From Liolophura sinensis (Eukaryota > Mollusca > Polyplacophora > Chitonida > Chitonidae): DNA of 64,000 nt. Below, in pieces: positions 13,868 to 47,500 of this stretch (position 1 is the first letter of the stretch; each line of letters begins with the position of its first letter). Location of the stretch: positions 930,001 to 994,000 of the forward strand of contig NC_088300.1 in NCBI RefSeq assembly GCF_032854445.1, in the 5' to 3' direction. The notes under the pieces were generated by a model. The model worked only from the letters and a program-made list of their open reading frames with translations, searched no databases and had not been told where the DNA came from. Both the position numbers and the translations under genes were made by a program.

Positions 13868-15540
13868 AAGATTCGAATGATTACACGTTAATTTCTGTCC
13901 CTCGTGTCCGACATACCACCTATTCCACTACACAGGATTCGAATGCTTACACGTTCATTTCTGTCCCTCGTGTCCGACATACCACCTATCCCACTACACA
14001 GGATTCGAATGTTTACACGTTCATTTCTGTCCCTCGTGTCCGACATACCACCTATCCCACTACACAGGATTCGAATGCTTACACCTTCATTTCTGTCCCT
14101 CGTGTCCAACATACCACCTATCCCACTACAAAAGATTCGAATGCTTACACGTTCATTTCTGTCCCTCGTGTCCGACATACCACCTATTCCACTACACAGG
14201 ATTCGAATGCTTACACGTTCATTTCTGTCCCTCGTGTCCGACATACCACCTAACCCACTACACAGGATTCGAATGCTTACACGTTCATTTCTGTCCCTCA
14301 TGTCCGACATACCACCTATCCTACTACACAGGATTCGAATGCTTACACGTTCATTTCTGTCCCTCGTGTCCGACATACCACCTATTCCACTACACAGGAT
14401 TCGAATGCTTACACGTTCATTTCTGTCCCTCGTGTCCGACATACCACCTATTCCACTACAAAAGATTCGAATGCTTACACGTTCATTTCTGTCCCTCGTG
14501 TCCGACATACCACCTATTCCACTACACAGGATTCGAATGCTTACACGTTCATTTCTGTCCCTCGTGTCCGACATACCACCTATTCCACTACAAAAGATTC
14601 GAATGCTTACACGTTCATTTCTGTCCCTCATGTCCGACATACCACCTATCCCACTACACAGGATTCGAATGCTTACACGTTCATTTCTGTCCCTCGTGTC
14701 CGACATACCACCTATTCCACTACAAAAGATTCGAATGCTTACACGTTCATTTCTGTCCCTCGTGTCCGACATACCACCTATTCCACTACACAGGATTCGA
14801 ATGCTTACACGTTCATTTCTGTCCCTCGTGTCCGACATACCACCTATTCCACTACAAAAGATTCGAATGCTTACACGTTCATTTCTGTCCCTCATGTCCG
14901 ACATACCACCTATCCCACTACACAGGATTCGAATGCTTACACGTTCATTTCTGTCCCTCGTGTCCGACATACCACCTATCCCTCTACACAGGATTCGAAT
15001 GCTTACACGTTCATTTCTGTCCCTCGTGTCCGACATACCACCTATTCCACTACACAGGATTCGAATGCTTACACGTTCATTTCTGTCCCTCGTGTCCGAC
15101 ATACCACCTATCCCACTACACAGGATTCGAATGCTTACACCTTCATTTCTGTCCCTCGTGTCCAACATACCACCTATCCCACTACAAAAGATTCGAATGC
15201 TTACACGTTCATTTCTGTCCCTCGTGTCCGACATACCACCTATTCCACTACACAGGATTCGAATGCTTACACGTTCATTTCTGTCCCTCGTGTCCGACAT
15301 ACCACCTATCCCACTACACAGGATTCGAATGCTTACACGTTCATTTCTGTCCCTCATGTCCGACATACCACCTATCCCACTACACAGGATTCGAATGCTT
15401 ACACGTTCATTTCTGTCCCTCGTGTCCGACATACCACCTATTCCACTACAAAAGATTCGAATGCTTACACGTTCATTTCTGTCCCTCGTGTCCGACATAC
15501 CACCTATTCCACTACACAGGATTCGAATGCTTACATGTTC
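13868..15540. repeat. Minisatellite, 66-bp unit, open on both strands
   Basis: About 25 highly uniform copies of a unit containing GATTCGAATGCTTACACGTT, CATTTCTGTCCCTCGTGTCC and GACATACCACCTATTCCACT. Because 66 is divisible by three and the unit lacks stops in several frames, the array gives long spurious frames on both strands (565 and 562 codons). Copies alternate between ACACAG and ACAAAA at the unit end, suggesting higher-order units. The flanks carry an imperfect inverted repeat (AACTGGTTTTCGAC near 13846, AATTGGTTTTCAAG inverted near 15553). Confidence 0.95.
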
Positions 15541-15559
15541 ATTCTTGAAAACCAATTGC

Positions 15560-17582: not shown

Positions 17583-20500
17583 CTGATCAGTGTTGAACAC
17601 TAGACTTGTATCATGGCAGTACTTGGGGAGGAACGTGATACATATGGTGTCTAGAAACAAATGTCCCACATGTGTCCCTCACTTGCTGAGCAAGCTCAAT
17701 GTACATCTAATGCTCAATATTGGTGGAGGTCAAGTGATCTTAATGCAAAACCAATTATCTGACCCTACAAGTGGCTCCCAAGAAGATTGGAGGCAAGGGA
17801 TGTAAAACAATCCCCTATCTAATGCTAGGATTAAACTCACTTCACATAAATCAAACAAATGAAACACAAGCAACCATCCCAACCACCTGGCCACCTGTGG
17901 ACCCTCGTCATCTACATGTATTTCTGACAAACATCATTGTCTACAGAGCCTACCTCGTCACTGTCATCTGACAATGGACTACTTGGCCCAGCCTCGTCCC
18001 CCACTGCTGTCTGAATCTGACCTCTGCCATTTTCACCTTCACCTCTGACTGCTGACCTCTGTACGATCTTCAACCTCTGAGCCTCTCTTTGTAGTGAGAC
18101 ACCTAAATATTTAACAGCTGAAGACTTCCCAAGTCTCTGTGAATGCCTTGACAAATCTGTGTCACTCTGACAACCATGGTACTGTGGATCACCTTCAGGC
18201 TTGTGCAATGCAGTTCTCTCTAGGTCAGACCATTCTCTGTGCAAGGTTTGATCATGCTTTCCTGTCTTGGCAGATGTAGATTTGACACTGAAGGTGTCAC
18301 ATGATTGTTTTGCATTCTCAAGTTCACAGGTGCTTCTTTGTGGTTTATCTGGACTTTGAATTACTTCCTGTTTTACACGACTGTTAAATGAGGACGTTCT
18401 CACTTCAGAACTAAATTTCTTCACACAATGGTTAACAGTTGCCTTTTCTGGTGTTAATGTTACCAATTTAGCAGCAATTCTACCAAATTTTTCTGAATGT
18501 TTCTTCTTTCCCCAATAGATGATTCTTGCCTTGGACTTGCTTTTGCAACTAGCTGGCTGTCCATCACTGCATGAGGAGTATGAATTTGAACTACCATTTA
18601 TGACAAGTGCTTGGACAGGTTCAGATTTCAGAGCAACTGAGGAGCATGGCAGTGGTTGTGAGGTAACTGGGGAGAAGCATGGCAGTGGCTGTGAGGTAAC
18701 TGGAGAGGAGCATGGCAGTGGTTGTGAGGTAACTGGAGAGGAGCATGGCAGTGGTTGTGAGGTAACTGGAGAGGACACTGGTCCTGGCTGATTGTATGCT
18801 AGTTGTTTCCTGGTAGTGTTACGAGGATGCTCTAATACCGGCCTCCTGGCAGGCTGTATATTTGTTCCTATCCTTTTGCTGGATTTACCCGTCTCCTTTG
18901 TTCCAATCCTTTTCCTAGATTTACCCGTCTCCTCTGTGAGGAAGGAAGAAGATTGTGTAGGTTCATAAGTATACTTTATAGAAACTTGTTCTTTCGCATA
19001 ACAGGATTTCTTAACTTTTACTTCACATGAAGTCATTTTCCCTGAAGATTCAAATCTTTTCTGCCTCTTAGCGCTTTTAGTAGTTCTGGCCTGGGCTTTG
19101 CGTCCATCAACTTTAACTGGACACTGTCTATCTTTAGCACCAGCTGGACGATCTTGAACTCTGGGACTAGCTTCTCCTGATGTTGAGTCTGATGGACCAT
19201 CCCGAACTCTGGGACTAGCTTCTCCTGATGTCGAGTCTGATGGACCATCCTGAACTCTGGGACTAGCTTCTCCTGATGTCGAGTCTGATGGACCATCCTG
19301 AACTCTGGGACTAGCTTCTCCTGATGTCGAGTCTGATGGACCATCCCGAACTCTGGGATTAGCGTCACCTGATCTTGAGTCTGCTGATTTGGTCGTACTG
19401 ATCTGACAGGCCTGGAACCCTAAAGGTGGAACCTTTGCAACACGACGTTTCTTCCCACCACTGTCTCCACGCCCAGGTAAAGATGTGCCCATATAAAGTA
19501 GGTCCAAGCTGGATGGGTGACCCCTAAGAATGTCTTTATCAATATGTGGCTTGTAGGAATAGGATTTCTTAGAAACTAAGACTGAAGGATAACCACACTT
19601 TTCATCTGAAGGTGCTGAAAAAAGAGATAACCCAAAAATTGTTTAAGGTTTAGACATCAGCACGTACAATATTCAGACAGCAGGTAGATCATCATCTATG
19701 CTAACTGTACACATGACCAAGAAGTTTTACCACACAGTCAAACCACCTGGTCAAATGGGTATAAACAGTTTTACAATTTTCTAAGAACATCAAAGCCAGA
19801 GTGATTTTGGATAAATCAGTTATACATTCCTATTTTCATGCAGATCATTCTAAACAGCCTTGGTGTTGAAAACAATTCAGTCACAAATTACTTTGTGTAA
19901 TTCTGACTCTGTGTAATTCTGACTCTGTGTAATTCTGACTCTGTGTAATTCTAACTTTGTGTAATTCTGACTGTGTAATTCTGACTCTGTGTAATTCTGA
20001 CTGTGTAATTCTGACTCTGTGTAATTCTGATTCTGTGTAATTTTGACTGTGTAATTCTGACTCTGTGTAATTCTAACTTTGTGTAATTCTGACTCTGTGT
20101 AATTCTGACTTTGTGTAATTCTGATTCTGTGTAATTCTGACTCTGTGTAATTCTGACTCTGTGTAATTCTAACTTTGTGTAATTCTGACTGTGTAATTCT
20201 GACTCTGTGTAATTCTGACTGTGTAATTCTGACTCTGTGTAATTCTGATTCTGTGTAATTTTGACTGTGTAATTCTGACTCTGTGTAATTCTGACTCTGT
20301 GATATTCTGACTCTGTGTAATTCTGACTTTGTGTAATTCTAACTTTGTGTAATTCTGACTCTGTGTAATTCTGACTTTGTGTAATTCTGATTCTGTGTAA
20401 TTTTGACTGTGTAATTCTGACTCTGTGACATTCTGACTCTGTGTAATTCTAACTTTGTGTAATTCTGACTCTGTGTAGGCTGTACCGGTGTGGGTAGAGG

Positions 20501-23500
20501 CTGGGATCTGATGTGTGAGTGTGTGATGACTGTACCATTGTGGGTAGAGGCTGGGATCTCATGTGTGAGTACCTGGTGAGACTGTACCATTGTGGGTAGA
20601 GGCTGGGATCAGATGTGGGAGTGTGTGGTTAGGCTGTACCACTGTGGGTACAGGCTGGGATCTGATGTGCGAGTGTGTGGTGAGACTGTACCATTGTGGA
20701 CAGAGGCTGGGATCTCATGTGTGAGTGTGTGGAGAAGTGTACCATTGCGGGTGGAGGCTGGGATTAGATGTGTGAGCGTGTGGAGAGTCTGTACCATTGT
20801 GGGTAGAGGCTGGGATCAGATGTATGAGCATGTGGTGAGACTGTACCATTGTGGGTAGAGGCTGGAATCAGATGTGTGAGTGTGTAGAGAAGTTGTACCA
20901 TTGTGTGTAGAGGCTGGGATCAGATGTGTGAGCATGTGGTGAGACTGTACCATTGTGTGTACAGGCTGGGATCAGATGTGTAAGTGTGTGGAGAAGCTGT
21001 ACCATTGTGGGTAGAGACTGGGATCAGATGTGTGAGCATGTGGTGAGACTGTACCATTGTGGGTAGAGGTTGGGATCAGATGTGTGGGTGTGTGGAGAAG
21101 TTGTACCATTGTGGGTAGAGGCTGGGATCAGATGTGTATGTGGTGAGACTGTACCATTGTGTAGAGGCTGCGATCAGATGTGTGAGTATGTAGTAAAACT
21201 GCACCACTGTGGGTAGAGGCTGGGATCAGATGTGTGAGCATGTGGTGAGACTGTACCATTGTGGGTAGAGGGTGTAATTAGAAGTGTGAGTGTCTGGAGA
21301 AGCTGTACCATTGTGGGCAGAGGGTGTGATCAGATGTGTGAGTGTGTGGTGAGACTGTACCATTGTGGGTAGAGGCTGGGATCAGATGTTTGAGTGTGTG
21401 GTGAGACTGTACCATTATGGATAGACGCTGGAATCAGATGTGTGGGTGTGTGGAGAAGCTGTACCTTTGTGGGTAGAGGTTGGGATCAGATGTGTGAGTG
21501 TGTGGAGAAGCTGTACCATTGTCGGTAGAGACTGGGATCAGATGTGTGAGAGTGTGGAGAAGCTGTACCATTGTGGATAGAGGTTGGGATCAGATGTGTG
21601 AGTGTGTGGTGATTGTACCATCGTGCTTAGAGGCTGGGATCAGTTATGCAAGTCTGTGGAGAAGCTGTACCATTGTGTGTACAGGCTGGGATCAGATGTG
21701 GACGTATGTGGTGAGGCTGTACCATTATGGATAGAGGCTGGGATCAGATGTGTGGGTGTGTGGAGAAGCTGTACCATTGTGTGTAGAGGTTGTGATCAGA
21801 TGTGTGAGCATGTGGAGAAGCTGTACCATTGTGGGTAGAGGTTGTGATCAGATATGTGAGCATGTAGTGAGACTGTACCATTGTGGGTAGAGACTGGGAT
21901 CAGATGTGTGGGTGTGTAGAGAAATGTACCATTGTGGGTACAGGCTGGGATCAGATGTGTGAGCATGTGGAGAAGCTGTACCATTGTGGGTAGAGGTTGG
22001 GATCAGATGTGTGAGCATGTGGAGAAGCTGTACCATTGTGGGTAGAGGCTGGGATCAGATGTGTGAGTGTGTGGTGAGACTGTACCATTATGGATAGAGG
22101 CTGGAATCAGATGTGTGGGTGTGTGGAGAAGCTGTACCATTGTGGATAGAGGTTGGGATCAGATGTGTGAGTGTGTGGAGAAGTTGTACCATTGTGGGTA
22201 GAGACTGGGATCAGATGTGTGAGTGTGTGGAGAAGCTGTACCATTGTGTGTAGAGGTTGTGATCAGATGTGTGAGCATGTGGAGAAGCTGTACCATTGTG
22301 GGTAGAGGCTGGGATCAGATGTGTGAGTGTGTGGAGAAGTGTACCATTGTGGGTAGAGGCTGGGATTAGATGTGTGAGCATGTGGTGAGACTGTACCATT
22401 GTGGGTAGAGGCTGGGATCAGATGTGTGAGCATGTGGAGAAGCTGTACCATTGTGGGTAGAGGTTGGGATCAGATATGTGAGCATGTAGTGAGACTGTAC
22501 CATTGTGGGTAGAGACTGGGATCAGATGTGTGGGTGTGTGGAGAAGTGTACCATTGTGGGTAGAGGCTGGGATTAGATGTGTGAGCATGTGGTGAGACTG
22601 TACCATTGTGGGTAGAGGCTGGGATCTCATGTGTGAGCATGTGGAGAAGCTGTACCATTGTGGGTAGAGGCTGGGATCAGATGTGTGAGCATGTGGTGAG
22701 ACTGTACCATTGTGGGTAGAGGCTGGGATCAGATGTGTGAGTGTGTGGAGAAGCTGTACCATTGTGGGTAGAGACTGGGTTCAGATGTGTGAGCATGTGG
22801 AGAAGCTGTACCATTGTGGGTAGAGACTGGGATCAGATGTGTGGGTGTGTGGAGAAGTGTACCATTGTGGGTAGAGGCTGGGATTAGATGTGTGAGCATG
22901 TGGTGAGACTGTACCATTGTGGGTAGAGGCTGGGATCAGATGTGTGAGCATGTGGAGAAGCTGTACCATTGTGGGTAGAGGCTGGGATCAGATGTGTGAG
23001 CATGTGGTGAGACTGTACCATTGTGGGTAGAGGCTGGGATCAGATGTGTGAGCATGTGGAGAAGCTGTACCATTGTGGGAAGAGGTTGTGATCAGATGTG
23101 TGAGCATGTGGTGAGACTGTACCATTGTGGGTAGAGGCTGGGATCAGGTGTGTGAGTGTGTAGAGAAGCTGTACCATTGTGGGAAGAGGTTGATATCAGG
23201 TAGGCTAGGCTCATTTCCTGGGCCAGGAACGGATGACAAGCAGCTTCGCATGGGGACAAGCGCTCATCTGTAACAGAGTAGCACACAGACATGGATGTAC
23301 AATCACAAACTGGAAAAAACTGGCAAAAAAATAGAGAATAACTTGAATCAGCATCAAAAAGATCACCTTTGTAAGTATGTGCAAAATGCTCATAATCAAA
23401 AAAAAGGATTGTATGTCAACAGGTAATACAACCTTACTAATATTACCACCAATAGCCAGCCGATCATTATAAAAATTTGAAATACAAGCTATTATTTATT

Positions 23501-26500
23501 ATAAGCTTTAGGAGAACAAAGAAATTCACTAGAATCAGCCAGTACACACAAGTCTACACTGGACGGCTGACACTACATACAACATCACCAAGACAGACAC
23601 TACATACATCTATACAACATCACCCAGACAGACACTACATATATCTATGAAATACAACATCACCCAGACAGACACTACAAGCATCTATGAAATACAACAT
23701 CACCCAGACAGACACTACATACATCTATGAAATACAACATCTCCCAGACAGACACTACATACATCTATACATCACCAAGACAGACACTACATACATCTAT
23801 ACAACATCACCCAGACAAACACTACATACATCCATGATATACAACATCACCCAGACAGACACTACATACATCTATGAAATACAACATCTCCCAGACAGAC
23901 ACTACATACATCTTTGACATACATCACCCAGATAGACATTACATACATCGATACATCACCCAGACAGACACTACATACATCTATGATATACAACATCACC
24001 CAGACAGACACTACATACATCTATACAACATCACCCAGACAGACACTACATACATCTATGATATACACCATCACCCAGACAGACACTACATACATCTATA
24101 CAACATCACCCAGACAAACACTACATACATCTATGATATACACCATCACCCAGACAGACACTACATACATCTACACAACATCACCCAGACAGACACTACA
24201 TACATCTATACAACATCACCCAGACAGACACTACATACATCTATGATATACACCATCACCCAGACAGACACTTCATTTACGAACACATACAGTATACACT
24301 GCTGCACACCACCACCACCGACCCAAACTCCACCAATGACTGACGATACATATACAGCACAGCACCACCATCGACCCAAACTCCACCACTGACTGATGAT
24401 ACATATACAGTACTGCACCACAGCCACCACTGACCCAAACTCCACCCCTGACTGATGATACATATACAGTACTGCACCACAGCCACCACCGACCCAAACC
24501 CCACCACTGACTGATGATACATATACAGTACTGCACCACAGCCACCACCGACCCAAACTCCACCACTGACTGATGATACATATACAGTACTGCACCACAG
24601 CCACCACCGACCCAAACCCCACCACTGACTGATGATACATATACAGTACTGCACCACAGCCACCACCGACCCAAACCCCACCACTGACTGATGATACATA
24701 TACAGTACTGCACCACAGCCACCACCGACCCAAACCCCACCACTGACTGATGATACATATACAGTACTGCACCACAGCCACCACCGACCCAAACTCCACC
24801 ACTGACTGATGATACATATACAGTACTGCACCACAGCCACCACCGACCCAAACTCCACCACTGACTAATGATACATATACAGTACTGCACCACAGCCACC
24901 ACCGACCCAAACTCCACCACTGACCAATGATACATATACAGTACTGCACCACAGCCACCACCGACCCAAACCCCACCACTGACTGATGATACATATACAG
25001 TACTGCACCACCACCACCACCCACCCAAACTCCACCACTGACTGATGATACATACACAGTACTGCACCACAGCCACCACTGACTGATGATACATATACAG
25101 TACTGCACAACAGCCACCACTGACCCAAACCCCACCAATGACTGATGATACATATACAGTACTGCAACACAGCCACCACCGACCCAAACTCCACCACTGA
25201 CTGATGATACATATATAGCACTGCACCAACCACCACCACCGACCCAAACTCCACCACTGACTGATGATACATATACAGTACTGCACCACCACCACCACCG
25301 ACCCAAACTCCACCACTGACTGATGATACATACACAGTACTGCACCACCACCACCACCGACCCAAACTCCACCACTGACTGATACATATACAGTACTGCA
25401 CCACCACCACCACCGACCCAAACTCCACCCCTGACTGATGATACATATACAGTACTGCACCACCACCACCACCGACCCAAACTCCACCACTGACTGACGA
25501 TACATATACAGTACTGCACCACAGCCACCACCGACCCAAACTCCACCACTGACTGATGATACATATATAGCACTGCACCACCACCACCACCGACCCAAAC
25601 CCCACCACTGACTGATGATACATATACAGTACTGCACCACCACCACCACCCACCCAAACTCCACCCCTGACTGATGATACATATACAGTGCTGCACCACC
25701 ACCACCACCACCGACCCAAACTCCACCACTGACCGATGATACATATACAGTACTGCACCACAGCCACCACCCACCCAAACCCCACCCCTGACTGATGATA
25801 CATATACAGTACTGCACCACAGCCACCACCGACCCAAACCCCACCACTGACTGATGATACATATACAGTACTGCGCCACCCACACTGAAGCTACACATAA
25901 ATACAATGTAAAATGAAGAAAAGGTTTATTTATTTATTTGATTGGTGTTTTACGCCATCCCAGGAATATTTCACTTAGTAGACGGCGACCAGCATTACGG
26001 TGGGAGGAAACCCGGTAGAAACGAAGAAACTAAAACAAGCCTCCTTACCCGGATCGTAGCGAAGAATCTGAGAGAGGAAACTGGCAAAGGCATAATTGGT
26101 GCACTTTTGTATTTTACCAGTTTTCAAGAGTAATCTCAGGTCATTTGTGGCTGAAAGGCAAAACAACCAAGTGATATCAGTTCATCAGGAAAAAGGGCAG
26201 TGTTTTGAATTCAAAATACATTCTATGAGAACATTCTAAATTTGCTGAATTACACTGTGGTTGAAAATACCATTGAATGGGGTAGCTTTGAGATCAAACC
26301 CTTTCTTCACAAGAGGTAATGAAAGTCCTTCTAGATCATGTGACTTGTCAAAAATGCTAGACAACTTCTGTTGATATTAATTCACCGATTACCCGTCTCA
26401 CCATGTTCTGGAGGCACAAATGACACGTGTTTTCTTCAGAATCTCACTGACCTCACAAACACTCAGCTCCTCACTTTTCTCCAAATTACTTTCAAAAACG

Positions 26501-29500
26501 TTTTGTAAAACTTTCTTCAGACTCCCATTTTATAGTATATCTAATTCTGAAATTTCTTATACGTTACATGGTACAGCAGGACTTGATAAAAGGCTTCAAA
26601 CTCAAAACTGCCCTATTGCGTTGATTTCGTAACAGCTTTCTCGATCTCACAGCATCGTACATCTACAGGTATATGTAATTACAGTTCCCCCTGAGAATGG
26701 TGTATGCAGTTCTCACCCCCTAATGCACTTATAAAGTGCATGTAAGTTTGTAACAACCTACAAAAATGGTGTATTGCATGTAATTCTTTCAAGCTGTAAA
26801 CATGATGTTTGTATTCTCTATCTACTAATATGGTGTAGGTAGTTATAACAACCATCTAATGTATGCACACATATGCTGGGGTTTTACGTCATACTTAAGA
26901 ATATGACGAAGACGAATCATTAGGGGTGTGTACGTTTACTGTCTCTTCTTGTGAGTCCATGCCGCCAATGCACTGCCACTACTGAAGCATCATACAAACC
27001 ACAGCGGACATTACACCCCACCTAGACACTACACTGAAGCATCATACCAACCAGAGCAGACATTACACCCCACAGACACTATAATGAAGCGTCATACCAG
27101 AGCAGACATTACACCCCCACCTAGACACTATACTGAAGCGTCATACGAACCAGAGCAGACATTACACCCCACCTAGACACTACACTGAAGCATCATACAA
27201 ACCAGCCACCATTAGACCCCATCGAGAGACTATACTGAAGCATCATACCAACCACAGGACACAGTACACCCCCACAGACACTACACTGAAGCATCATACC
27301 AACCAGAGCAGACATTACACCCCACCTACACACTATACTGAAGCATGATACCAACCAGAGCAGACATTACACCCCACCTACATACTATACTGAAGCATCA
27401 TACCAACCAGAGCACACATTACACCCCCACAGACACTATACTGAAGCATCATACCAACCACATCCGACACACACACAGTGTATGTATGATACTGAAGCAT
27501 CACACCAAACAGAGCAGACATTACACCCCACCTAGACACTACACTGAAGCATCATACCAACCAGAGCAGACATTACGCCCCACATAGACACTACACTGAA
27601 GCATCATACCAACCAGAGCAGACATTACACCCCACCTAGACACTATAATGAAGCGTCATATCAACCAGAGCAGACATTACACCCCCACAGACACTATACT
27701 GAAGCATGATACCAACCAGAGCACACATTACACCCCCACCTAGACACTACACTGAAGCATCATACCAACCAGAGCACACATTACACCCCCACCTAGACAC
27801 TACACTGAAGCATCATATCAACCAGAGCAGACATTACACCCCACCTAGACACTACACTGAAGCGTTATACCAACCAGAGCAGACATTACACCCCAAGCTA
27901 GACACTACACTGAAGCGTCATATGAACCACAGCAGACATTACACCCCACCTAGACACTACACTGAAGCATCATACCAACCAGAGCACACATTACACCCCA
28001 CCTAGACACTACACTGAAGCGTTATACCAACCAGAGCACACATTACACCCCCAGCTAGACACTACACTGAAGCATCATACCAACCAGAGCACACATTACA
28101 CCCCACCTACACACTACACTGAAGCATCATACCAACCAGAGCACACATTACACCCCACCTACACACTATACTGAAGCATGATACCAACCAGAGCACACAT
28201 TACACCCAACCTACACACTATACTGAAGCATCATACCAACCAGAGCACACATTACACCCCCACCTAGACACTACACTGAAGCATCATACCAACCAGAGCA
28301 CACATTACACCCCACCTACACACTATACTGAAGCACGATACCAACCAGAGCACACATTACACCCCAAGCTAGACACTACACTGAAGCATCATACCAACCA
28401 GAGCAGACATTACACCCCCACCTAGACACTACACTGAAGCGTCATACGAACCAGAGCACACATTACACCCCACCTAGACACTACACTGAAGCGTCATATG
28501 AACCACAGCAGACATTACACCCCACCTAGACACTACACTGAAGCATCATACCAACCAGAGCAGACATTACACCCCACCTAGACACTACACTGAAGCGTCA
28601 TACCAACCAGAGCACACATTACACCCCACATAGACACTACACTGAAGCATCATACCAACCAGAGCACACATTACACCCCACCTAGACACTACACTGAAGC
28701 ATGATACCAACCAGAGCAGACATTACACCCCACCTACACACTATACTGAAGCATGATACCAACCAGAGCAGACATTACACCCCACCTAGACACTACACTG
28801 AAGCATCATACCAACCAGAGCAGACATTACACCCCACATACACACTATACTGAAGCATGATACCAACCAGAGCAGACATCACACCCCACCTACACACTAT
28901 ACTGAAGCATGATACCAACCAGAGCACACATTACGCCCCACCTAGACACTACACTGAAGCATCATACCAACCAGAGCACACATTACACCCCACCTAGACA
29001 CTACACTGAAGCATCATACCAACCAGAGCACACATTACACCCCCACCTAGACACTATACTGAAGCATGATACCAACCAGAGCACACATTACACCCCCACC
29101 TAGACACTATACTGAAGCATCATACCAACCAGAGCAGACATTACACCCCCAGCTAGACACTACACTGAAGCGTCATACCAACCAGAGCAGACATTACACC
29201 CCACCTAGACACTATACTGAAGCATCATACCAACCAGAGCAGACATTACACCCCACCTAGACACTATACTAACATCGGGCAACCTGTCCGGTTTCCTCAC
29301 TCTAGCCTCTCAGTGCTGAGCACGCAGCAAGACAGCAACAAGTACTATCTCAGATCTTCCAATATTAGTGCAGATGCTCTAACCAGTAGGCCACAGAGAC
29401 AGTCTCTAAACATGGTGTTTATGCTTTTAACAACCCTTATACAAGGCGTACCTGGTTCTTCCAGCCTGGCAACACGGCATAAGTAGTTCTAACTATCTGT

Positions 29501-32500
29501 AAACACAGTGTATGTAGTTCTAACTATCTGTAAACACGGTGCATGTAGTTCTCACTATCTGTACACACGGTGTATGTAGTTCTCACTATATGTAAACATG
29601 GTGCATGTAGTTCTCACTATATGTAAACCATGATGTATGCTGTTCTCACTATATGTAAACAAGGATGTATGTTGTTCTCATTATCTGTAAACACGGGGCA
29701 TGTAGTTCTAACTATCTGTAAACACAGTGTATGTAGTTCTAACTATCTGTAAACATGGTGCATGTCGTTCTCACTATCTGTACACACGGCGTATGTAGTT
29801 CTCACTATATGTAAACATGGTGCATGTAGTTCTCACTATATGTAAACCATGATGTATGCTGTTCTCACTATATGTAAACAAGGATGTATGTTGTTCTCAT
29901 TATCTGTAAACACGGGGCATGTAGTTCTAACTATCCGTAAACACGGTGCATGTAGTTCTAACTATCTGTAAACACGGTGCATGTAGTTCTCACTATCTGT
30001 ACACACGGTGTATGTAGTTCTCACTATATGTAAACATGGTGCATGTAGTTCTCACTATATGTAAACCGGGAGGTATGTCCTTCTCACTATCTGTAAACAC
30101 AGTGCATGTAGTTCTCACTATATGTAAACATGGTGCATGTAGTTCTCACTATATGTAAACCGGGAGGTATGTCCTTCTCACTATCTGTACACACGGTGTA
30201 TGTAGTTCTCACTATCTGTAAACATGGTGCATGTAGTTCTCACTATATGTAAACCAGGATGTATGTTGTTCTCACTATCTGTACATACGGTGCATGTGGT
30301 TCTAACTATCTGTAAACACGGTGCATGTGGTTCTAACTATCTATAAACATGGTGTATGTAGTTCTCATTATCTATAAACACGGTCTATGATTTTATTTAT
30401 TTATTTGATTGGTGTTTTACGCCGTACTCAAGAATATTTCACTTATACGACGGCGGCCAGCATTATGGTGGGTGGAAACCGGGCACACCCCGAGGGAAAC
30501 CCACGACCATCCGCAGGTTGCTGGCAGACCTTCCCACTTACGGACGGTCTATGAAGTTCTAACTATCTATGAACACAGTGTATGTGGTTGTAAGTAGTTT
30601 TAACTATATGTAAACAGAGTGTATGTGGTTGTAAGTAGTTTTAACTATCTGTAAACAGAGTGTATGTGGTTCTATCTGTACACACGATGTTAGTAGTTCC
30701 AACTATCTGTAAACACATTGTATGTAGTTGTAAGTAGTTTTAACTATCTGTAAACACAGTGTATGTGGTTCTATCTGTACACACGATGTTAGTAGTTCCA
30801 ACTATCTGTAAACACATTGTATGTAGTTGTAAGTAGTTTTAACTATATGTAAACACAGTGTATGTAGTTGTAAGTAGTTTTAACTATCTATAAACACAGT
30901 GTATGTGGTTCTATCTGTACACACGATGTTAGTAGTTCCAACTATTTGTAAACACATTGTATGTAGTTGTAAGTAGTTTTAACTTTATGTAAACACAGTG
31001 TATATAGTTGTAAGTAGTTTTAACTATCTATAAACACAGTGTATGTAGTTCTATCTGTCTATAAACACAGTGTATGTAGTTGTAACTATCTATAAACACA
31101 GTGTATGTAGTTCTATCTGTCTATAAACACAGTGTATGTAGTTGTAACTATCTATAAACACAGTGTATGTAGTTGTATCTGTCTATAAACACGCGGTACA
31201 TAGTTCTAACTATCTATAAACATGGTGAATGTAGATCTAACTATTCATAAACGCGGTGCAAACATGCTGTGGTTATAACACCTCGTAAACATGCTGTGTG
31301 TGGTTATAACACCTTGCAAACATTCTGTGTGTGGTTATAACAACTTGTAAACATGCTGTGTGTGTTTATAACAACTTGTAAGCATGCTGTGTGTGGTTAT
31401 AACAACTTGTAAACATGCTGTGTGTGGTTATAACAACTTGTAAACATGCTGTGTGTGTTTATAACAACTTGTAAGCATGCTGTGTGTGGTTATAACAACT
31501 TGTAAACATGCTGTGTGTGTTTATAACAACTTGTAAGCATGCCATGGGTGGTTATAACAACTTGAAAACATGCTGTGTGTGGTTATAACAATTTGTAAAC
31601 ATGCTGTGTGTGGTTATAACAATTTGTAAACATGCTCTGTGTGTTTATAACAACTTGTAAGTATGCTGTGTGTGGTTATAACAACTTGTAAGCATGCTGT
31701 GTGTGGTTATAACAACTTGTAAACATGTTGTCTGGTTATAACACCTTGTAAACATGTTGTCTGGTTATAACACCTTGTAAACATGCTGTGTATGGTTATA
31801 ACAACTTGTAAACATGTTGTGTGTGGTTGTCCATGAACCTGTTACCAGACATATATCTTTGTAGTTTTCACCCGCTGTGTTAAATCTTACCATCGGGCTG
31901 CAGGCCTGAGAAGGTGAACATGTCCAGACTGGAGTAGAACTTCCCTCTCTGTACCAGAGACCTAGGCACAGGTCCCAGTAAATGTACCATCTGAGACAGA
32001 AAACAACCATCCAAACATGACTCAAGAAATGTTCGCGTCTATGACAGCAATCAGGTTTATCAGTGAAAAAAACAGGGATACCTGCAGTAAACCAGTGAAC
32101 TTCCCTGGGTACCTGACAAACATCCTGACTGAAAGCTCAGGGATACTCTAGAAAATATGATACTCAGCAGTAACTCTCGCAGCTTAACACAATAAATGTA
32201 AATAAATTATGTAAAGATAATTCCTCTTTTGACTGACTGAGTAATTGAGAAGGCCAATGTAGGCCCTATACATATGTTGTGTATTTCAAAAGTGCTGCAG
32301 TTTGCCAAACCAACTCCCCAAACAAATCTAGTGAGCATTCAGCAGATACTGGTCACAATGATTATCACACATGCAGAACCAAATCACACCTCTTTCCCTG
32401 TTTGTTTGTCGTCATTTTGATATCCTTATCATAAAACGGCCATGTACATTTGTCATGAGGTTGTATCAGTTCTCCCCCTTGTGTTGTTGACACAGTCATG

Positions 32501-35500: not shown

Positions 35501-38500
35501 ACAGGCAGCATTTACTGTTTTCAGAATATCTGTTACCCGCACACAGGCAGTATTTACTGTGTTCAGAAAATCTGTTACCTGCAAAGACTGTGGGTGCAAA
35601 ATACCATCTGTTAAGAATTCTTATTGTGAAATTTTTGGGATGCCTGGATCATTAAAAAATGTTGTCCATTGCACTGGGATTAAGAAAGAGAGATTAAATC
35701 CACCCACAAAAGCTGCTTACAATGCCATGTGTAACATCTAACACACATATAGATGTTCAACCATTCACAGTATCACATACATGTAATGAATATTTTGACA
35801 GAAATAAATAAATTTTGTTTCTAATTATAAAGTGTCCAGTCAACCATTTCCAACTGAAGGAGAATTTATGCTACAAGCAATACGAGTATTAAAATCATTC
35901 AATGGTCCCTCAGAACAAACCAAGTCCCCTTTGGGTGGAGTATCACAAGTACATCTACACTGCACATCCATCAAGCAGGTTAAGGGGCCTCCCCACAGAG
36001 CCTGCATCTTTTCTTCACTTTTCTCACCTCCATATCCAAAATACAAAAACAAATGGTATAGACTTCATTCGTTTTAGCGTAAGAAAAAATGAATCAAAGG
36101 CGATAAGTTTAAACGAGTGCTCATTTTTCATTCAAGATTTCTTCAAAAGTAGCCCTTGCCAATAACACAGAACCCAGCTGTTCTAAGTTCCATTACCTAC
36201 ATACATGTTGACTTATTGATTTGCTTAGTTGACATTTATCACTTCGTCAGGTATTAAAATCCATGCTAAGTATGCCGACATACTGCAACATACCTATCGT
36301 ATGCACGTATTATGCAAGTGCTTGGGGTTTAACGTCATGCTTATACTTTTTCAGTCATATGACGACAAAGGAACCCTTAGAGTGTATGTAATGTGCCTCC
36401 TTGCTGCAGGACGGATTTCACCGCTATTCTATCTCATGCGGCTTCAATGAGATGGCTTTCCAAAGGCAAGTAAATCGCCCTGCCTGAGCCATTATCCTGA
36501 TAGGGGTCAACCAGTCATTGCACTATCCCCTTAATGCTGAAGGCCAGGTGAGGAAGTTACAGCTTCTTCTGTTTTAAGGTCTTAGGTGTGACCCAAGAGT
36601 GACCATGGATCTACTGATCCTGAAGCGGACGCTCTACGCAGCTGTCGAACCCAAATGTCATTAAGTCAAGAGCAAAAGCCCTGGACCACAAGTCCTAACC
36701 AACTCTCGACACAGCTTATAGTAGTAACAGCTGTTCTGTGACTGGTTATCTGACCTTTAAGAACTTGTTAACTATTGTTCAGCCTTTTACAATCTACTAC
36801 AAAATCACTGTTTTCATAAAAACATTTTAAAACAGCTGCATTGCATATGTCTTTACAGAGCTGTAAGTCAAAGGTCGCCTGTACTTAATTTGTACAACCA
36901 TTCCAAAGTATTCTGCGCTTAGCACTACACAGGTACATGAACGTGACAGCCCAAAAACATACTCTGATTTATGCTGATATTCAAAGAACCAACCAGTGCA
37001 CTGTTCATGGAAATAAAACTACACGACAATATGTGCCATGCCACCACAAGCAGCTTCCATGTGATTTACTCATGGCATACATGTAATCAGAACTTGACAT
37101 GATCCCAGCTTCAGAAGGCAGGTCCCAGAGTAATACAAGTACATGAAATAATGTCTCATCACATTTTCAAAGCTTACTGACACCATCTCTATCTGCACAC
37201 AGTCAATGAGTAACCATGTAACAAATTTATCCTGCAAAAGACCTATCAATTCAGAGAAGAAGGCTGATGTATTTGCAAATCGCTGCTGCGACATCACTGT
37301 TTTCACATCCAAATGCCACAATGAAGGGAGATAACCTAGTTAAAATGAGCATATTGCATTTGCTGTAGGATACATATATACAATATCAGTCTCCCAAGTG
37401 ACTTGCATTGCTCAGTTAACACAAGTATTTTGTCTGATGTGGGATGCATAACAATACAAACACAGACACCCATTACAAGTTCTGTTTTTCAGGAGGGACG
37501 AATGTAATTCTGTGTATTTTAGGGTGTAAAGTTTTGTCTTGCTGACAGCTTGCCGTTTTTGGTGTACAGGTGCATGCTTGGTATTAAAATGATGGAAACT
37601 GTCAAAGCTTTGGAGAGGTATGGGTTTTACTGATGAAAGTTTGAAATTCTGGGAGAGAGGACACAAGGAGACAGGTGGTGATGAGGCTGCGAGTGACGTC
37701 CCCTTTGGCGTTGCTAGGCACCCCGCCCTTTTGCCCGCAGAGAAAGGTCCAGATTTTGACGGTCAACCTATGTCAAGCTTTCATGGCTTCTTTCTCAAAG
37801 GCGAGGTACGCATCATAGCTTATTGGCCACGGAATGTTTGGGGCTGAGCTACAGCACTAAACGTTAACATTGTCGCTTATGGAAAATTAATGGCATATAG
37901 TTGTATTTTAAAAGTAATTTCTTTGTCCACATCTTTTAATTTGATGGCGATATTGGAACATAACCTACGACACATTCACGTGACCGCAGAATACAAAATG
38001 CATATCATCACCCGCATGCCATTCTGGGCTTACCATGAGGTGAGATTTATTCCTAAGACAGAGGAAGATGTGGTGTTGTACTGTTCACCCACTCACCATA
38101 CAGATTATACATATTGTAGGGGGCCAAATGCCCATTGTTGCATTGTTGCATCCATTAATATTTGGGGTGTTTGGATTTTGGAAGGTTATTCAGTAAATAT
38201 ACAATGCATTTGGTGATTATATGCATACACCCACCTTCTGCAGGACTTCCTCTTTGGTTGCACCGTAGAACAGTGGTCTGCCCAGGAAGAGCTCTGCCAG
38301 TATACAACCCACAGACCACAGGTCTATCTCCTGACCAAACTGTAAACCAAACATCACCTGCAACACACAAACCAGCACATACAGTACAGTGTACAACCCA
38401 CAGGTCTATCTCCTGACAAAACTGTAAACCAAACATCACTTGCAACACATAAACCAGCATATACAATATAGTGTACAACCCACAGATCACAGGCCTTTCT

Positions 38501-41500
38501 CCTGACCAAACTGTAAACCAAACATTCCCTGCAACACATAAACCAGCACATACAATACAGTGTACAACCCACAGACCACAGGTCTATCTCCTGACCAAAC
38601 TGTAAACCAAACATCACCTGCAACACACAAACCAGCACATACAGTACAGTGTACAACCCACAGGTCTATCTCCTGACAAAACTGTAAACCAAACATCACT
38701 TGCAACACATAAACCAGCACATACAATACAGTGTACAACCCACAGATCACAGGCCTTTCTCCTGACCAAACTGTAAACCAAACATTCCCTGCAACACATA
38801 AACCAGCACATACAATACAGAGTACAACCCACAACTCTCCTGACCAAACTGTAAACCAAACATCACCTACAACACATAAACCAGCACATACAATACAGTG
38901 TATAACCCACAGACCACAGGTCTATCTCCTGACCAAACTGTAAACCAAACATCACCTGCAACACATAAACCAGCACATACAATACAGTGTACGACCCACA
39001 GGTCTATCTCCTGATCAAACTGTAAACCAAACATCACTTGCAACACATAAACCAGCATATACAATACAGTGTACAACCCACAGATCACAGGCCTTTCTCC
39101 TGACCAAACTGTAAACCAAACATTCCCTGCAACACATAAACCAGCACATACAATACAGAGTACAACCCACAACTCTCCTGACCAAACTGTACACCAAACA
39201 TCACCTACAACACATAAACCAGCACATACAATACAGTGTATAACCCAAAGACCACAGGTCTATCTCCTGACCAAACTGTACACCAAACATTTTTTTTTTT
39301 TTTTGATTGGTGTTTTACGCCGTACTCAAGAATATTTCACTTATACGACGGCGGCCAGCATTATGGTGGGTGGAAACCCACGACCATCCGCAGGTTGCTG
39401 GCAGACCTTCCCACGTACGGCCGGAGAGGAAGCCAGCATGAGCTGGTCTTGAACTCACAGCGACCGCATTGGTGAGAGGCTTCTGGGTCACTACGCTGCG
39501 CTAGCGCGCTAACAGACTGAGCCACGGAGGCCCCTAAACCAAACATCACCTACAACACATAAACCAGCACATACAATACAGTGTATAACCCACAGACCAC
39601 AGGTCTATCTCCTGACCAAACTGTAAACCAAACATCACCTGCAACACACAAACCAGCACATACAGTACAGTGTACAACCCACAGGTCTATCTCCTGACAA
39701 AACTGTAAACCAAACATCACCTGCAACACATAAACCAGCATATACAATACAGTGTACAACCCATAGATCACAGGCCTTTCTCCTGACCAAACTGTAAACC
39801 AAACATTCCCTGCAACACATAAACCAGCACATACAGTACAGTGTACAACCCACAGACCACAGGTCTATCTCCTGACCAAACTGTACACCAAACATCACCT
39901 ACAACACATAAACCAGCACATACAATACAGTGTACAACCCACAGACCACAGGTCTATCTCCTGACCAAACTGTAAACCAAACATTCCCTGCAACACAAAC
40001 CAGCACATACAGTACAGTGTACAACCCACAGACCACAGGTCTATCTCCTGACCAAACTGTAAACCAAACATCACCTACAACACATAAACCAGCACAAACA
40101 ACACAGTGTACAACCCACAGATCACAGGCCTATCTCCTGACCAAACTGTAAACCAAACATCACCTGCAACACATAAACCAGCACATACAATACAGTGTAC
40201 AACCCACAGGTCTATCTCCTAACAAAACTGTAAACCAAACATCACCTACAACAACCAGTACATACAATACAGTGTACAACCCACAGTCCACAGGCCTGTC
40301 TCCTGACAAAACTGTAAACGAAACATCACCTGCAACACATAAACCAGCACATACAATACAGTGTACAACCCACAGATCACAGGCCTATCTCCTGAACCAA
40401 ACTGTAAACCAAACATCACCTACAACACATAAACCAGCACATACAATACAGTGTACAGCCCACAGGCCTGTCTCCTGACAAAACTGTAAACAAAACATCA
40501 CCTACAACAACCAGCACATACAATACAGTGTACAACCCACAGTCCACAGGCCTGTCTCCTGACAAAACTGTAAACCAAACATCACCTGCAACACATCAAC
40601 CAGCACATACAATACAGTATGCAACCCACAGGTCTATCTCCTGACCAAACTGTAAGCCAAACATCACCTACAACACATAAACCAGCACATACAGTACAGT
40701 GTACAACCCACAGGTCTATCTCCTGACCACACTGTAAACCAAACATCACCTGCAACAACCAGATTACAACCCACAGACCACAGGCCTATCTCCTGACCAA
40801 ACTGTAAACCAAACATCACCTACAAGAAACCAGCACATACAATACAGTGTACAACCAACAGACCACAGGCCTGTCTCCTGACAAAACTGTAAACCAAACA
40901 TCACCTACAACAACCAGCACACACAATACAATATACAGTCCACAGACAACAAGCCAATATAATGTGAACATTGCTAAAGGTGACATGCAACATGAACATT
41001 GCTAAAGGCACAAAGCTTTCTTGTCTACAGTCATGGGAGGGGCCGTTAAGTATGGTTACAGAGTACAACACTTTCCTAAAGGTGCAATCCAGACTGGCAT
41101 AGTTGTCCCCTTACCTCTGGTGCCCTGTACAGTAGAGTCTGGAGATCAAAGTCTTCATAGTATAGGGAAACTTCATCATACACGCAGTGAATGGCGTTTC
41201 CAAAATCTGCCACGTGCAGGGAGTTTAGGTCACCTTCTGCAAAACGTAAGTCCATCTTAATAACTACAGTGACAGGACTGGATTCACCAACCTATCACAG
41301 CCTAAAACTCTGGCAGGGGATCACAACATATTCCATCAACACTTGTACACTGTTACTGGAAACATTGTCTGTTCCACAATCAATAATAACAAATAATAAA
41401 ATATGTCTTATTGTATTGACTGATGACTTTTCATGACATACAAATATGGCTGTGGTGTTGGTGGATGACAGGTGATCTTCAATAAATGTAAAACAGACTC

Positions 41501-44500
41501 GAAATGTTCTTTCAGGAAACATTTCAGATGTTGGTTTGACTACTGCCACATGGGAGATACTCAGGTTTTCTCTGTGTTACACACTTGTTTTAAGAAGTAG
41601 GTTGTCTGGTTTCAGGTCAGCATGGATGACATTCTGTTGACGAAGGAAGCCGAGAACCATGAGCAGTCGCACAGCTACTTGGCGAATTTTGGAGTAGATT
41701 TCCTGCAAAAAGAAAAAAGAAAACATCAATTTTATCATGAACCATCAATTTCACACCATATATGTTTAAAACAAATTGTTAAATTAGCAAAAAGATTTAA
41801 TTTCTTATGTTGAGTGAAATAAGGCCTAACAGATACTAGGTGCTCTTTAAAAAGAAAATACTAATATATGGAATGACTCCTGAAGTGCTAGAGTTGATGT
41901 TTTCTTTTAAAACAATACTATGGACAACATACAGGTTAATTTTACAACAGATATATGTATACATTTTGCAGCTGAACACAATCTTATTCTGACATCTGAA
42001 CATAGCATTTCAAAACAACCAGTTCTGAAATATACATTTGATAAGTGTTATCTTACCAGCTATTACAATAAATCACAAACACTTGTGCAAATATTTCTTA
42101 ACATTGCATCTGCCTATTTATTTTTTTTCTCTTTTTTTATGAAATCCTAAAACTGTTACTGTTGTATTGTAAGCTTGCCCGGTGGTGCCAAATGTAAACT
42201 ACTGCAGCTGTGGGTGCTTACATATACCTCAGGGTGGGTACCTCTTAGAGTGCGTAACCTATGTGGGTGCTTACCTGAGGGTGCATAACCTATGCGGGTG
42301 CATACCTCTGTGGGTACTTACCTCTGAGGGTGCGTCCCTCTGCAGGTGCTTACCTCTGAGGGTGAGTAACCTCTGTGGGTGCATACCTCTATGGGTGCTT
42401 ACCTCTGAGGGTGGGTAACCTATGTTGGTACTTTCCTCTGAGGTTGCGTACTTCTGTGAGTGCTTCCCTGTGAGGGTGCTTACCTCTGAGGGTGCTGATG
42501 TGTCATCAGGGTAGAAGAGCTCCACCCAGTTGGGTTCACACATCAACTCAAACACCATGCAGTAATGGTCATCAAACGAAAATGTATTCTGTCAAGTGAA
42601 AAAACACAACTGCTTTAACAATAAATCCTCAAACTCATCAGTATAAAACATTAACTTGAGAAGCCCATTACAACAGTATTCTAATTACAGCACCTCAAAC
42701 TCACCAGGCAGTAGTCTACACAATGTTCACATGTCAAAGTCAGCGAATACTTTACAGACAAGTGAACAGTCACACTCACCAGCAGTCCTAATCTACAGAC
42801 AAGTGAATGGTCACGCTCACCAGCAGGCCTAATCTACAGACAAGTGAACAGTCACAATCACCAGCAGGCCTAATCTACAGACAAGTGAACAGTCATACTC
42901 ACCACCAGGCCTTATCTACAGACAAGTGAACAGTTACACTCACCAGCAGGCCTAATCTACAGACAAGTGAACAGTCATACTCACCAGCAGTCCTAATCTA
43001 CAGACAAGTGAACAGTCACACTCACCAGCAGGCTTAATCTACAGACAAGTGAACAGTCACACTCACCAGCAGGCTTAATCTACAGACAAGTGAACAGTCA
43101 CAATCACCAGCAGGCCTAATCTACAGACAAGTGAACAGTCACACTCACCAGCAGGCTTAATCTACAAACAAGTGAATGGTCAAACTCACCAGCAGTCCTA
43201 ATCTACACACAAGTAAATGGTCACACTCACCACCAGGCCTAATCTACAGACAAGTGAACAGTCATGCTCACCAGCAGGCTTAATCTACACACAAGTGAAT
43301 GGTCACGCTCATCAGCAGACCTAATCTACAAACAAGTGAATGGTCACGCTCACCAGCAGGCCTAATCTACAGACAAGTGAAGAGTAAGACTCACCAGCAG
43401 GCCTAATCTAGAGACAAGTGAACAGTCACGCTCATCAGCAGGCCTAATCTACAGACAAGTGAGCAGTAAGACTCACCAGCAGGCCTAATCTACAGACAAG
43501 TGAAGAGTAAGACTCACCAGCCGGCCTAATCTACAGACAAGTGAGCAGTCACGCTCACCAGCAGGCCTAATCTACAGACAAGTGAAGAGTAAGACTCACC
43601 AGCCGGCCTAATCTACAGACAAATGAAGAGTAAGACTCACCAGCAGGCCTAATCTACAGACAAGTGAGCAGTCACGCTCACCAGCAGGCCTAATCTACAG
43701 ACAAGTGAAGAGTAAGACTCACCAGCCGGCCTAATCTACAGACAAGTGAGCAGTAAGACTCACCAGCAGGCCTAATCTACAGACAAGTGAACAAACAACT
43801 TAGCAGTGATTTACAGAACATATGACCACAGAAGTAACCTACATGTACATTTGTTTATTTGATTGGCATTTTACGTTGTACTAAAGGATATGTCACTTAT
43901 ACAACAGCGCTCAGCATTCTGGTGGGAGGAAACCTGGCAGAGCCCAGGGGAAGCCCATAACCATCAGCAGGTTGCTGGCAGACTTTCCCATGTACAGCCG
44001 GATAGAAAGCCAACATGAGCCAGACAAACTCACAGCAACCACATTGGTGAGAGGCTTGAGTCGCCTCACCTACATGTACAGCTACATACGATCACATGTG
44101 TTCAATCACACTCACCAGTAATCTGCAGACATGTGAACAACCACACTCACCAGTACTCTACAGACATGAAAAAGCACACTCACCAGTACTCTACAGACAT
44201 GTGAACAATCACACTCATCAGTACTGCACGAACATGTGGACAATCACACTCACTAGTATTCTATAAACGTGAACAATCACACTCACAACAACTCTGAAGA
44301 AATGTGGACAACCACACTCACCAGTACTGAACAGATGTGGACAATCACACTCACCACTACTAAACAGACATGTGCACAATCACACTCACCAGTACTGAAC
44401 AGACGTGAACAATCACACTCACCAGTACTGAACAGACATGTGAACAATCACACTCACCAGTATTCTACAGACATGTGAAAAACCTCACTCACCAGTATTC

Positions 44501-47500
44501 TACAGACATGTGAAAAACCTCACTCACTAGTATTCTACAGACATGTGAACAACCACACTGACCAGTAACCTGCACACATGTGAGACACCAAATGGGTCAG
44601 CTGCCCTCAGCCTGAGACAACAGTCAGTCTCCTGGTAACCCAACCGGTAGAAGTGTGAGTGCAGGATCTTAATCGCCACAGCCTTGTTACCATTAAACAT
44701 GTCCTGAAGGAGTAAAGACCAGTGTCAGCATACATGGAAGCTTACAGATAAATTATCCGTATTATTAGATTGATGCTTACAATGATTGATCAGTAAGCAT
44801 AATGAAAGATCACTTTAGGCAGAAGAAAGATACATGTACATCTACATATAATTAAATGTGATGTCATAAAATGTGTTTATTATAAAGTAGCTGCAAAAGG
44901 ACATTGCAAGAAACCCTCCTTTTTATTAAGCTTAATAAAGACACCAAACAGGGTTTTTTCCCTTCACATACAAACACCAACATTATACACAAATCAAATA
45001 ATGGACTTTGTTAACTTGATTTCCAAGTTTTTAAAAAGTCAAAATCTGAAATGAAAGTTCACCTGTGCCCTGATGACCACAGCTGACTGCCCTGTCCCTA
45101 GCACTTCCACAAACCTGTACCGGAGGGCCAGAATGCACTGTCCATCATTCACATCAAAACAACCATAAACGTCTGTGTAGCAACCATAGTCTGAAGGTAG
45201 ACAAACACATCAACACAGCCATTAACATTTGTGTAATAGCCATCATCTGAGGGTAGACAAACACATCAAAACAGCCATTAACATTTGTGTAGTAGCCATC
45301 ATCTGAGGGTAGACAAACACATCAAAACAGCCATTAACATTTGTGTAGTAGCCATCATCTGAGGGTAGACAAACACATCAAAACAGCCACTAACATGTGC
45401 ATGACAGGTATACATGTACACATCAAAACAGCCATTAACATTTGTGTAGTAGCCATCATCTGAGGGTAGACAAACACATCAAAACAGCCATTAACATTTG
45501 TGTAGTAGCCATCATCTAAGGGTAGACAAACACATCAAAACAGCCATTAACATTTGTGTAGTAGCCATCATCTGAGGGTAGACAAATACATCAAAACAGC
45601 CACTAACATGTGCATGACATGTATACATGTACACATCAAAACAGCCATTAACATTTGTGTAGTAGCCATCATCTGAGGGTAGACAAACACATCAAAACAG
45701 CCATTAACATTTGTGTAGTAGCCATCATCTGAGGGTAGACAAACACATCAAAACAGCCATTAACATTTGTGTAGTAGCAATCATCTGAGGGTAGACAAAC
45801 ACATCAAAACAGCCACTAACATGTGCATGACAGGTATACATGTACACATCAAAACAGCCATTAACATTTGTGTAGTAGCCATCACCTGAGGGTAGACAAA
45901 CACATCAAAACAGCCACTAACATGTGCATGACAGGTATACATGTACACATCAAAACAGCCATTAACATTTGTGTAGTAGCCATCACCTGAGGGTAGACAA
46001 ACACATCAAAACAGCCATTAACATTTGTGTAGCATCATCTGAGGGTAGATGTAGTTCACATGGGACGATTTGCCTTGGACTGTTACATGTAGTTCACATG
46101 GGACGATTTGCCTTGGACCACTATATGTAGCTCACATGGGACGGTTTGCCTTGGATCGCTACATGTAGTTCACATGGGACGATTTGCCTTGAATTGCTAC
46201 ATGTAGTTCACATGGGACGATTTGCCTTGGGACGATTTGCCTTGAATCGCTACATGTAGTTCACATGGGACGATTTGCCTTGGATCGCTACATGTAGTTC
46301 ACATGGGACGATTTGCCTTGAATTGCTACATGTAGTTCACATGGGACGATTTGCCTTGAATCGCTACATGTAGTTCACATGGGACGATTTGCCTTGGATC
46401 GCTACATGTAGTTCACATGGGACGATTTGCCTTGAATCGCTATATGTAGTTCACATGGGACGATTTGCCTTGGGACGATTTGCCTTGAATCGCTACATGT
46501 AGTTCACATGGGACGATTTGCCTTGGACCGCTATATACCTTGGACCGCTTGTTCACAAAGCAGTCCAAAGCTATAAACTCTTGTTCTTTCCTTCATTACG
46601 TCACAATTACTGGTGTGTCTGCTCATATAACATGTAGGTACATGTGTAGTACACAAGCACTGCAGCATCACAGAAGAAACCAATGTGCTCTATTGTGCCT
46701 GGACCCTTTACTATAGCCAAGTCTCCAAGTCTGCCATTTCTTACAAATATATTATGACAGTCCGGTTTATGGGCAGAGGAACTGTCTATAGGACACTATG
46801 GAATATTAAACACTGACTCAACACAGCAGCTACACAAGTGTGGCTCTGATCTGTTTTCCAATCATATTCCCCACGGTCATCAAATTAATAATTAATAAGT
46901 GAAATCTTACAGCATGTAGTAAAGGTAAATTACCAAGCATAAAATGTAGGTATCCTGAATTAACTGTGGTATTTTTGAATTATTCCAATACCCCGTCTGG
47001 ACACTCATTGTGATTTGTGAAATCTGCCATTAGGTGCTGAGTTGAAAAAAAAAATCCACCTAAAATATGCTACTGACAAAGTCCAACAATTGGTTTTAAA
47101 CTGAATAAAAATGCCAAAAACTAAACATAAATCCATACTTTTAACTCTGCAGTAAACGTAATGGTTTTACATTAAAGCAATCAAGAAAGAAAAAAGAAAT
47201 ACAAATGACCCTTAATAGCTGTGTTCAAATGGGGGAAAAAATGCAATGTTAGATATTCATACAATGTCAACCAAGATATTGCCAGAAGCAGGGTAATTAT
47301 ACACATTACGCATTAGCTGCCCAATAAACCACAGAAAAACTGAAAGGTCAGACCAGAGAGGGGTTCTAGTTAGGCTTTCTCTGGGTCCTATCAGCTCACA
47401 CGAGAAGCTCATATCCCCATAAGGTCTTCAAGGATTATCCCCACATAGTTAACCTCAAAAACCAAATCTGGGTTAAATATGCGCACAATGAGAATCGATG

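Follow-up and report, generated by a model that had tools for sequence, protein, structure and literature searches.

Minisatellites copied from exon–intron boundaries in a protein kinase gene of the chiton Liolophura

Tandem repeats of intron/exon boundaries are known from amphioxus, where they are called mirages and occur in the Adh3, globin, troponin C and PGBD5 genes (PMC3087553, PMC3902484). In the globin genes, both 3′ and 5′ boundaries are duplicated, AG or GT is present in many copies, splicing is regular by reverse-transcription PCR, and haplotypes differ in length; the mechanism is called unclear, and a role in intron creation is proposed (PMC3087553). The PGBD5 paper describes repeats overlapping two exons and cites the Adh and troponin C cases (PMC3902484). 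For an earthworm, minisatellites in a first intron have been described, and the available part of that paper does not state whether they span a junction. Here we report arrays of this type in a protein kinase gene on the minus strand of a 64,000-nucleotide stretch of Liolophura DNA (contig NC_088300.1, positions 930,001 to 994,000), which as a whole is called the window below. The original prediction knew of no described mechanism that preferentially amplifies splice junctions; boundary-spanning repeats had already been published as mirages, and the chiton arrays are of that known kind, not new in kind.

Five arrays found by Tandem Repeats Finder (TRF) overrun splice sites of the kinase gene, at 23175, 38357, 42484, 44563 and 45190, into the exon, and every unit of the five consists of exon edge, splice site and intron. 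That the arrays at these sites copy boundaries had been predicted from the DNA with coordinates exact to the base, and junction words together with unit alignments bear out the division into three donors and two acceptors. At donor 23175 (junction word ACAATG/GTACAG, the slash marking the boundary) the array occupies 20479..23189, with a 52-base unit made of approximately 15-25 exonic bases, the donor and intron. Donor 42484 (TCAGAG/GTAAGC), at the end of exon 3 (42484..42588), is overrun by an array at 42231..42496 whose 16-base unit is nearly just the donor site, CAGAG/GTAAGCACCCT. At donor 44563 (TTACTG/GTCAGT), belonging to exon 2 (44563..44703), the array at 44094..44583 has a unit of 35 bases with approximately 21-25 exonic bases, the donor and intron. 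The first of the two acceptors, 38357 (GTTGCAG/GTGATG) of exon 6 (38235..38357), lies in an array at 38316..40955, which combines three overlapping TRF rows and has a unit of approximately 82-89 bases, with about 40 intronic bases, the acceptor and at least 42 exonic bases. The second, 45190 (CTTCAG/ACTATG), opens exon 1 of the model (45063..45190), and its array at 45150..46049, upstream of that exon, has a 56-base unit (and longer multiples) with about 41 exonic bases, the acceptor and intron. All of these features are on the minus strand. Their assignment to the mirage type rests on boundary-spanning units at 5/5 junctions, minisatellite-sized tandem units (16, 35, 52, 56 and approximately 82-89 bases), the involvement of both donors and acceptors, and the keeping of AG or GT in the copies.

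Alignment of each TRF consensus to its nearest boundary, the check proposed with the original prediction, shows that all five units match their own junction far above chance. Local scores of unit against junction are 71 (23175), 100 (38357), 44 (42484), 62 (44563) and 79 (45190), and the best scores among 2,000 non-array segments of 120 bases from the window are 17, 21, 19, 26 and 17, respectively. Because 2,000/2,000 random segments score lower in each case, chance matches are ruled out as the source of the likeness. Restricting the match to the 60 exonic bases leaves scores of 17, 44, 13, 16 and 26 in the same order, against maxima of 11, 16, 9, 11 and 12 in a smaller null set (60-base segments taken every 13 bases of 36000-38000). 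An assembly artefact is the other way in which the arrays might be spurious, and the publication on the Liolophura japonica assembly GCA_032854445.1 (609,464,459 bases in 632 contigs) gives a coverage of just 14x; however, the HiFi reads average 8.3 kb (PMC11068029), the arrays measure at most 2.7 kb, and their copies differ from one another. Since the reads are longer than each array, we regard artefact, like chance similarity, as extremely unlikely.

The five units are mutually unrelated, as had been claimed: no pair among them scores 20 or more. The accompanying claim that the other arrays of the gene are not junction-derived holds for most of them, the remaining units in or upstream of the gene scoring only 10-15 against the placed junctions (19 for the array at 48084), and fails for one. 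This sixth array (42753..43793, minus strand, unit 41) lies in the intron after exon 2, together with the 44094..44583 array; its unit scores 30 against the junction of donor 44563 and 48 against the unit of that array, so one donor has given rise to two arrays.

At 38357, the first 42 exonic bases are repeated in the unit with 0 mismatches and encode conserved kinase residues, so that at this site the array is firmly a copy of the exon. The same direction is likely for 45190 and 44563. The opposite order of events, with arrays that began inside introns and an exon edge that later shifted into them, could be imagined most readily for 42484 and 23175, because the units there have a short exonic part or one beyond the conserved domain. 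At 38357, by contrast, the exonic part aligns with PRP4 and DYRK kinases, and those at 45190 and 44563 are also within the aligned domain, so that we consider this order very improbable.

The 38357 array is interrupted at 39293-39535 by an element resembling a short interspersed element (SINE), with a T-run and with ACCAAACAT on either side, which is possibly a target-site duplication and possibly merely the repeat unit. Fragments of the element occur at five other places in the window and at many of the sampled loci, so the element entered a pre-existing array.

The gene model itself comprises seven placed exons. Exons 1-6, which include exon 4 (41585..41702) and exon 5 (41115..41236) in addition to those already named, share one reading frame of 245 residues; their joins are based on frame, GT-AG and unbroken kinase alignment. 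The product is assigned to the protein kinase domain of Pfam and aligns without interruption with PRP4 and DYRK kinases, the best E value being 2.3e-34 (for a query with one residue wrong). The seventh exon (23175..23267) carries the end of the kinase domain, and at least one exon of the gene was not located in the stretch between 38235 and 23267. The donor of the seventh exon, at 23175, is predicted and lies outside the homology: its phase fits that of an acceptor at 19614 leading into a long open frame, an agreement expected by chance in one case out of three. The predicted following, and last, exon (17915..19614) is read from this open frame, and all of these exons are on the minus strand. 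No Rfam model matched within the window at the gathering threshold.

In most of their copies, the arrays have kept the splice site. Across 21 arrays the splice dinucleotide is intact in 201/214 copies scored (donors 137/144, acceptors 64/70), copies below half of the perfect-match score being left unscored. In the kinase gene, GT is intact in 52/52 copies of the 23175 array, 9/12 of the 42484 array and 12/13 of the 44563 array, and AG in 24/27 copies of the 38357 array and 12/12 of the 45190 array. Such figures might be taken to mean that the copies are kept to help or regulate splicing. However, the splice dinucleotide is conserved at 0.926 compared with 0.879 for other dinucleotides of the units (P=0.13, 14 arrays), and a comparison with GT, AG, CT and AC dinucleotides gives P=0.19. 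Within these 14 arrays there is no signal of selection on decoy sites, which are neither purged nor specially retained; in drift and homogenisation they seem to behave as common minisatellite units do, and a function of this type is highly unlikely.

The reading that we favour, with a probability of roughly 0.7, is that these are mirage-type minisatellites produced by indiscriminate tandem duplication that is filtered by selection on exons, surplus copies being tolerated on the intron side. Segments of approximately 15 to 110 bases would often be tandemly duplicated in this genome, largely ignoring gene structure. Where such a segment lies over a splice site, the copy with the coding exon edge would be retained by purifying selection, and extra copies, presumably neutral, would build up in the intron, either upstream of an acceptor or downstream of a donor. 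Splicing would stay at the exon-proximal site despite intact decoys in most copies. Segments that are wholly intronic would give rise to ordinary intronic arrays of any period, and wholly exonic segments would survive if they are divisible by three in length. The number of cases in the kinase gene would reflect its high array content: arrays account for 69% of this region, compared with 52% across the window and 11.6% of intron bases in the sample from elsewhere. Across genes, boundaries are crossed about as often as random seeding would give, or at most roughly twice as often.

Exonic arrays in the window have periods that are multiples of three. The predicted last exon contains in-frame arrays (18639-18775, 18861-18937 and 19145-19383, minus strand) with periods of 33, 36 and 48, all within one open frame, which would be repeats at the protein level. 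Elsewhere in the window, a 66-base array of 25 copies (13870-15543) has an open frame of >500 codons and an 18-base array of 134 copies (56145-58552) one of >700 codons; since both periods are multiples of three, these frames need not be genes.

The occurrence of junction-spanning arrays in other genes was assessed in pairs of neighbouring exons from conserved gene families at other places in the genome, giving 302 introns with 604 boundaries, 176/302 of the introns being from dynein heavy-chain genes. Set 1 consisted of dynein AAA_6 (90/90 rows used), myosin (80/81, one row being omitted by oversight), chaperonin (47/50) and ABC transporters (46/49), the rows left out of the last two being long single-exon hits. 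Set 2, kinesin and dynein DHC_N2, used all 218 rows; set 3, dynein MT, UCH and some kinases, was a partial choice, chiefly of rows with a possible neighbour; and set 4 consisted of four stretches of dynein genes, read by way of matches to paralogues. AMP-binding rows, mostly from single-exon genes, were not used. Junctions were refined by phase, homology gap (except in set 4) and splice-site score, with generic splice-site weights, and 10/235 junctions in sets 1-2, 4/27 in set 3 and 10/64 exon pairs in set 4 were unrefinable. From 71 array rows, 60 distinct arrays remained: 8 rows were merged manually with another that shared their intron and unit, and 3 that lay beyond the refined introns were removed.

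Arrays are present in 53/302 of the sampled introns, and 16/60 span a splice site (12 donors and 4 acceptors, at 15 different gene loci). Junction-spanning arrays are therefore widespread in the genome, and 16/604 boundaries, or about one in forty, carry one (95% confidence interval, CI, 1.5-4.3%). One sampled array, of period 21, is entirely exonic. In a unit-homology test applied to sets 1 and 2, two further arrays (L035/L036 and L049), 85-230 bases off a boundary, match that boundary beyond all 224 other junctions. L036 (C6:35119964-35120408) and L049 (C9:13731639-13731768) lie approximately 210-230 bases from the exon, with units that still match the donor junction, and are probably ancient boundary arrays since separated from their exon. 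A weaker case, L124, which spans a donor (score 17, null maximum 13), was left out of the count, as were L044/L045, L055, L070, L085 and L090, which beat the null and match on the intron side only or over 5 exonic bases.

A key question is whether splice junctions are preferred, as the original prediction proposed. We compared the counts with a uniform model in which the founding unit is placed evenly over the array-free intron and its edges. Several results of this comparison weigh against indiscriminate duplication. The pooled sample has 16 crossings of 60 where 8.4 are expected (1.9-fold, CI 1.1-3.1, p=0.005), yet selection on exons should reduce crossings below uniform seeding; adding the two unit-homology arrays to sets 1-2 gives an excess with p=0.0007. 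Donors are crossed 12 times against 4.2 expected (p=0.0006, CI of the ratio 1.5-5.0). In the kinase gene, which was selected for its arrays, 5/11 arrays cross where 0.7-0.9 are expected (p=0.0004-0.001), the range reflecting trials with 14, 16 and 18 boundaries, as the intervening exon or exons were not located. Among arrays with at least three copies, 11/36 cross against 5.1 expected (p=0.008), at 7 donors and 4 acceptors.

The general excess is concentrated in set 1 (9 against 3.6, p=0.004) and did not clearly repeat beyond it, because sets 2-4 give 7 against 4.8 (p=0.19). Although set 2 had been collected as a replication of set 1, both were already included when uniform seeding was first tested; the statistic was fixed beforehand for set 3 only, and set 4 was added since set 3 was small. 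Array coverage in the 302 introns rises from 0.8% at 60 bases into the exon to 2.5% at 5 bases inside it, 2.8% at +5, 7.9% at +200 and 19.9% at +500; it thus climbs steadily away from the exon and has no peak at the boundary. Because of the p value of the later sets and the lack of such a peak, it is not established that splice junctions are preferentially amplified: the pooled count agrees with that part of the original prediction, and the later sets and the coverage profile lend it no clear support.

The alternative that these data bring forward is seeding linked to donors, in which 5′ splice sites would raise the rate of the first duplication, perhaps through R-loops, polymerase pausing at a U1-bound donor or short repeats of donor words, and the acceptor cases would arise by chance. 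The excess of arrays near splice sites that the original prediction would have tested genome-wide was indeed found at donors in the sampled introns, including sets 2-4 (6 against 2.4, p=0.028), and not at acceptors (4 against 4.2). The donor/acceptor split was, however, spotted post hoc, and 12:4 taken alone has p=0.077; the ratio of 7:4 at three or more copies indicates that two-copy duplications make up part of the donor excess, and the coverage profile is again without a boundary peak. Weaker selection on donor than on acceptor copies would produce the same split, but no excess over random seeding. If donor-linked seeding were true, donor arrays would arise at nearly three times the uniform rate, and minisatellite birth would be tied to events at the donor of transcribed genes (U1 binding, R-loops, pausing). 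We consider it rather unlikely. No general mechanism acting at splice junctions is needed to account for these data, and the donor-only excess is the remaining hint of preferential amplification.

The amphioxus mirages, which behave in the same manner and are spliced normally by reverse-transcription PCR, also favour indiscriminate duplication filtered by exon selection. In Adh3, the globin genes BflGb6 and BflGb9, troponin C and PGBD5, they likewise have units of exon edge, splice site and intron at 5′ and 3′ boundaries, keep AG or GT in many copies, and lie to the intron side of the authentic exon, which forms one end; their units overlap in length with those reported here (10-72 bp in Adh3 and 150-160 bp in the globins; PMC3087553). 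The present case differs in coming from a mollusc, in being known from sequence only, and in having five boundaries involved within a single gene, one of them with two arrays, and as many as 52 copies scored. Intron gain through AGGT-type tandem duplication (PMC4974935) similarly duplicates exon sequence with splice signals, whereas here a pre-existing boundary is amplified and a new intron is not seen. Ordinary intronic minisatellites (variable number tandem repeats) resemble the junction arrays in that periods, copy numbers and divergence are as in the other arrays of the window, but the junction units contain coding sequence and a splice site. Searches of the literature open to searching found no report of boundary-spanning repeats in molluscs or chitons.

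Finally, the chiton arrays suggest that mirages are not peculiar to amphioxus. With up to dozens of intact decoys beside constrained exons, they provide a natural test of how a choice is made among near-identical splice sites, and they may serve as raw material for exon-edge shifts and intron gain. With them, it also becomes a simple matter of counting whether tandem duplications are seeded at splice sites, and at donors in particular.

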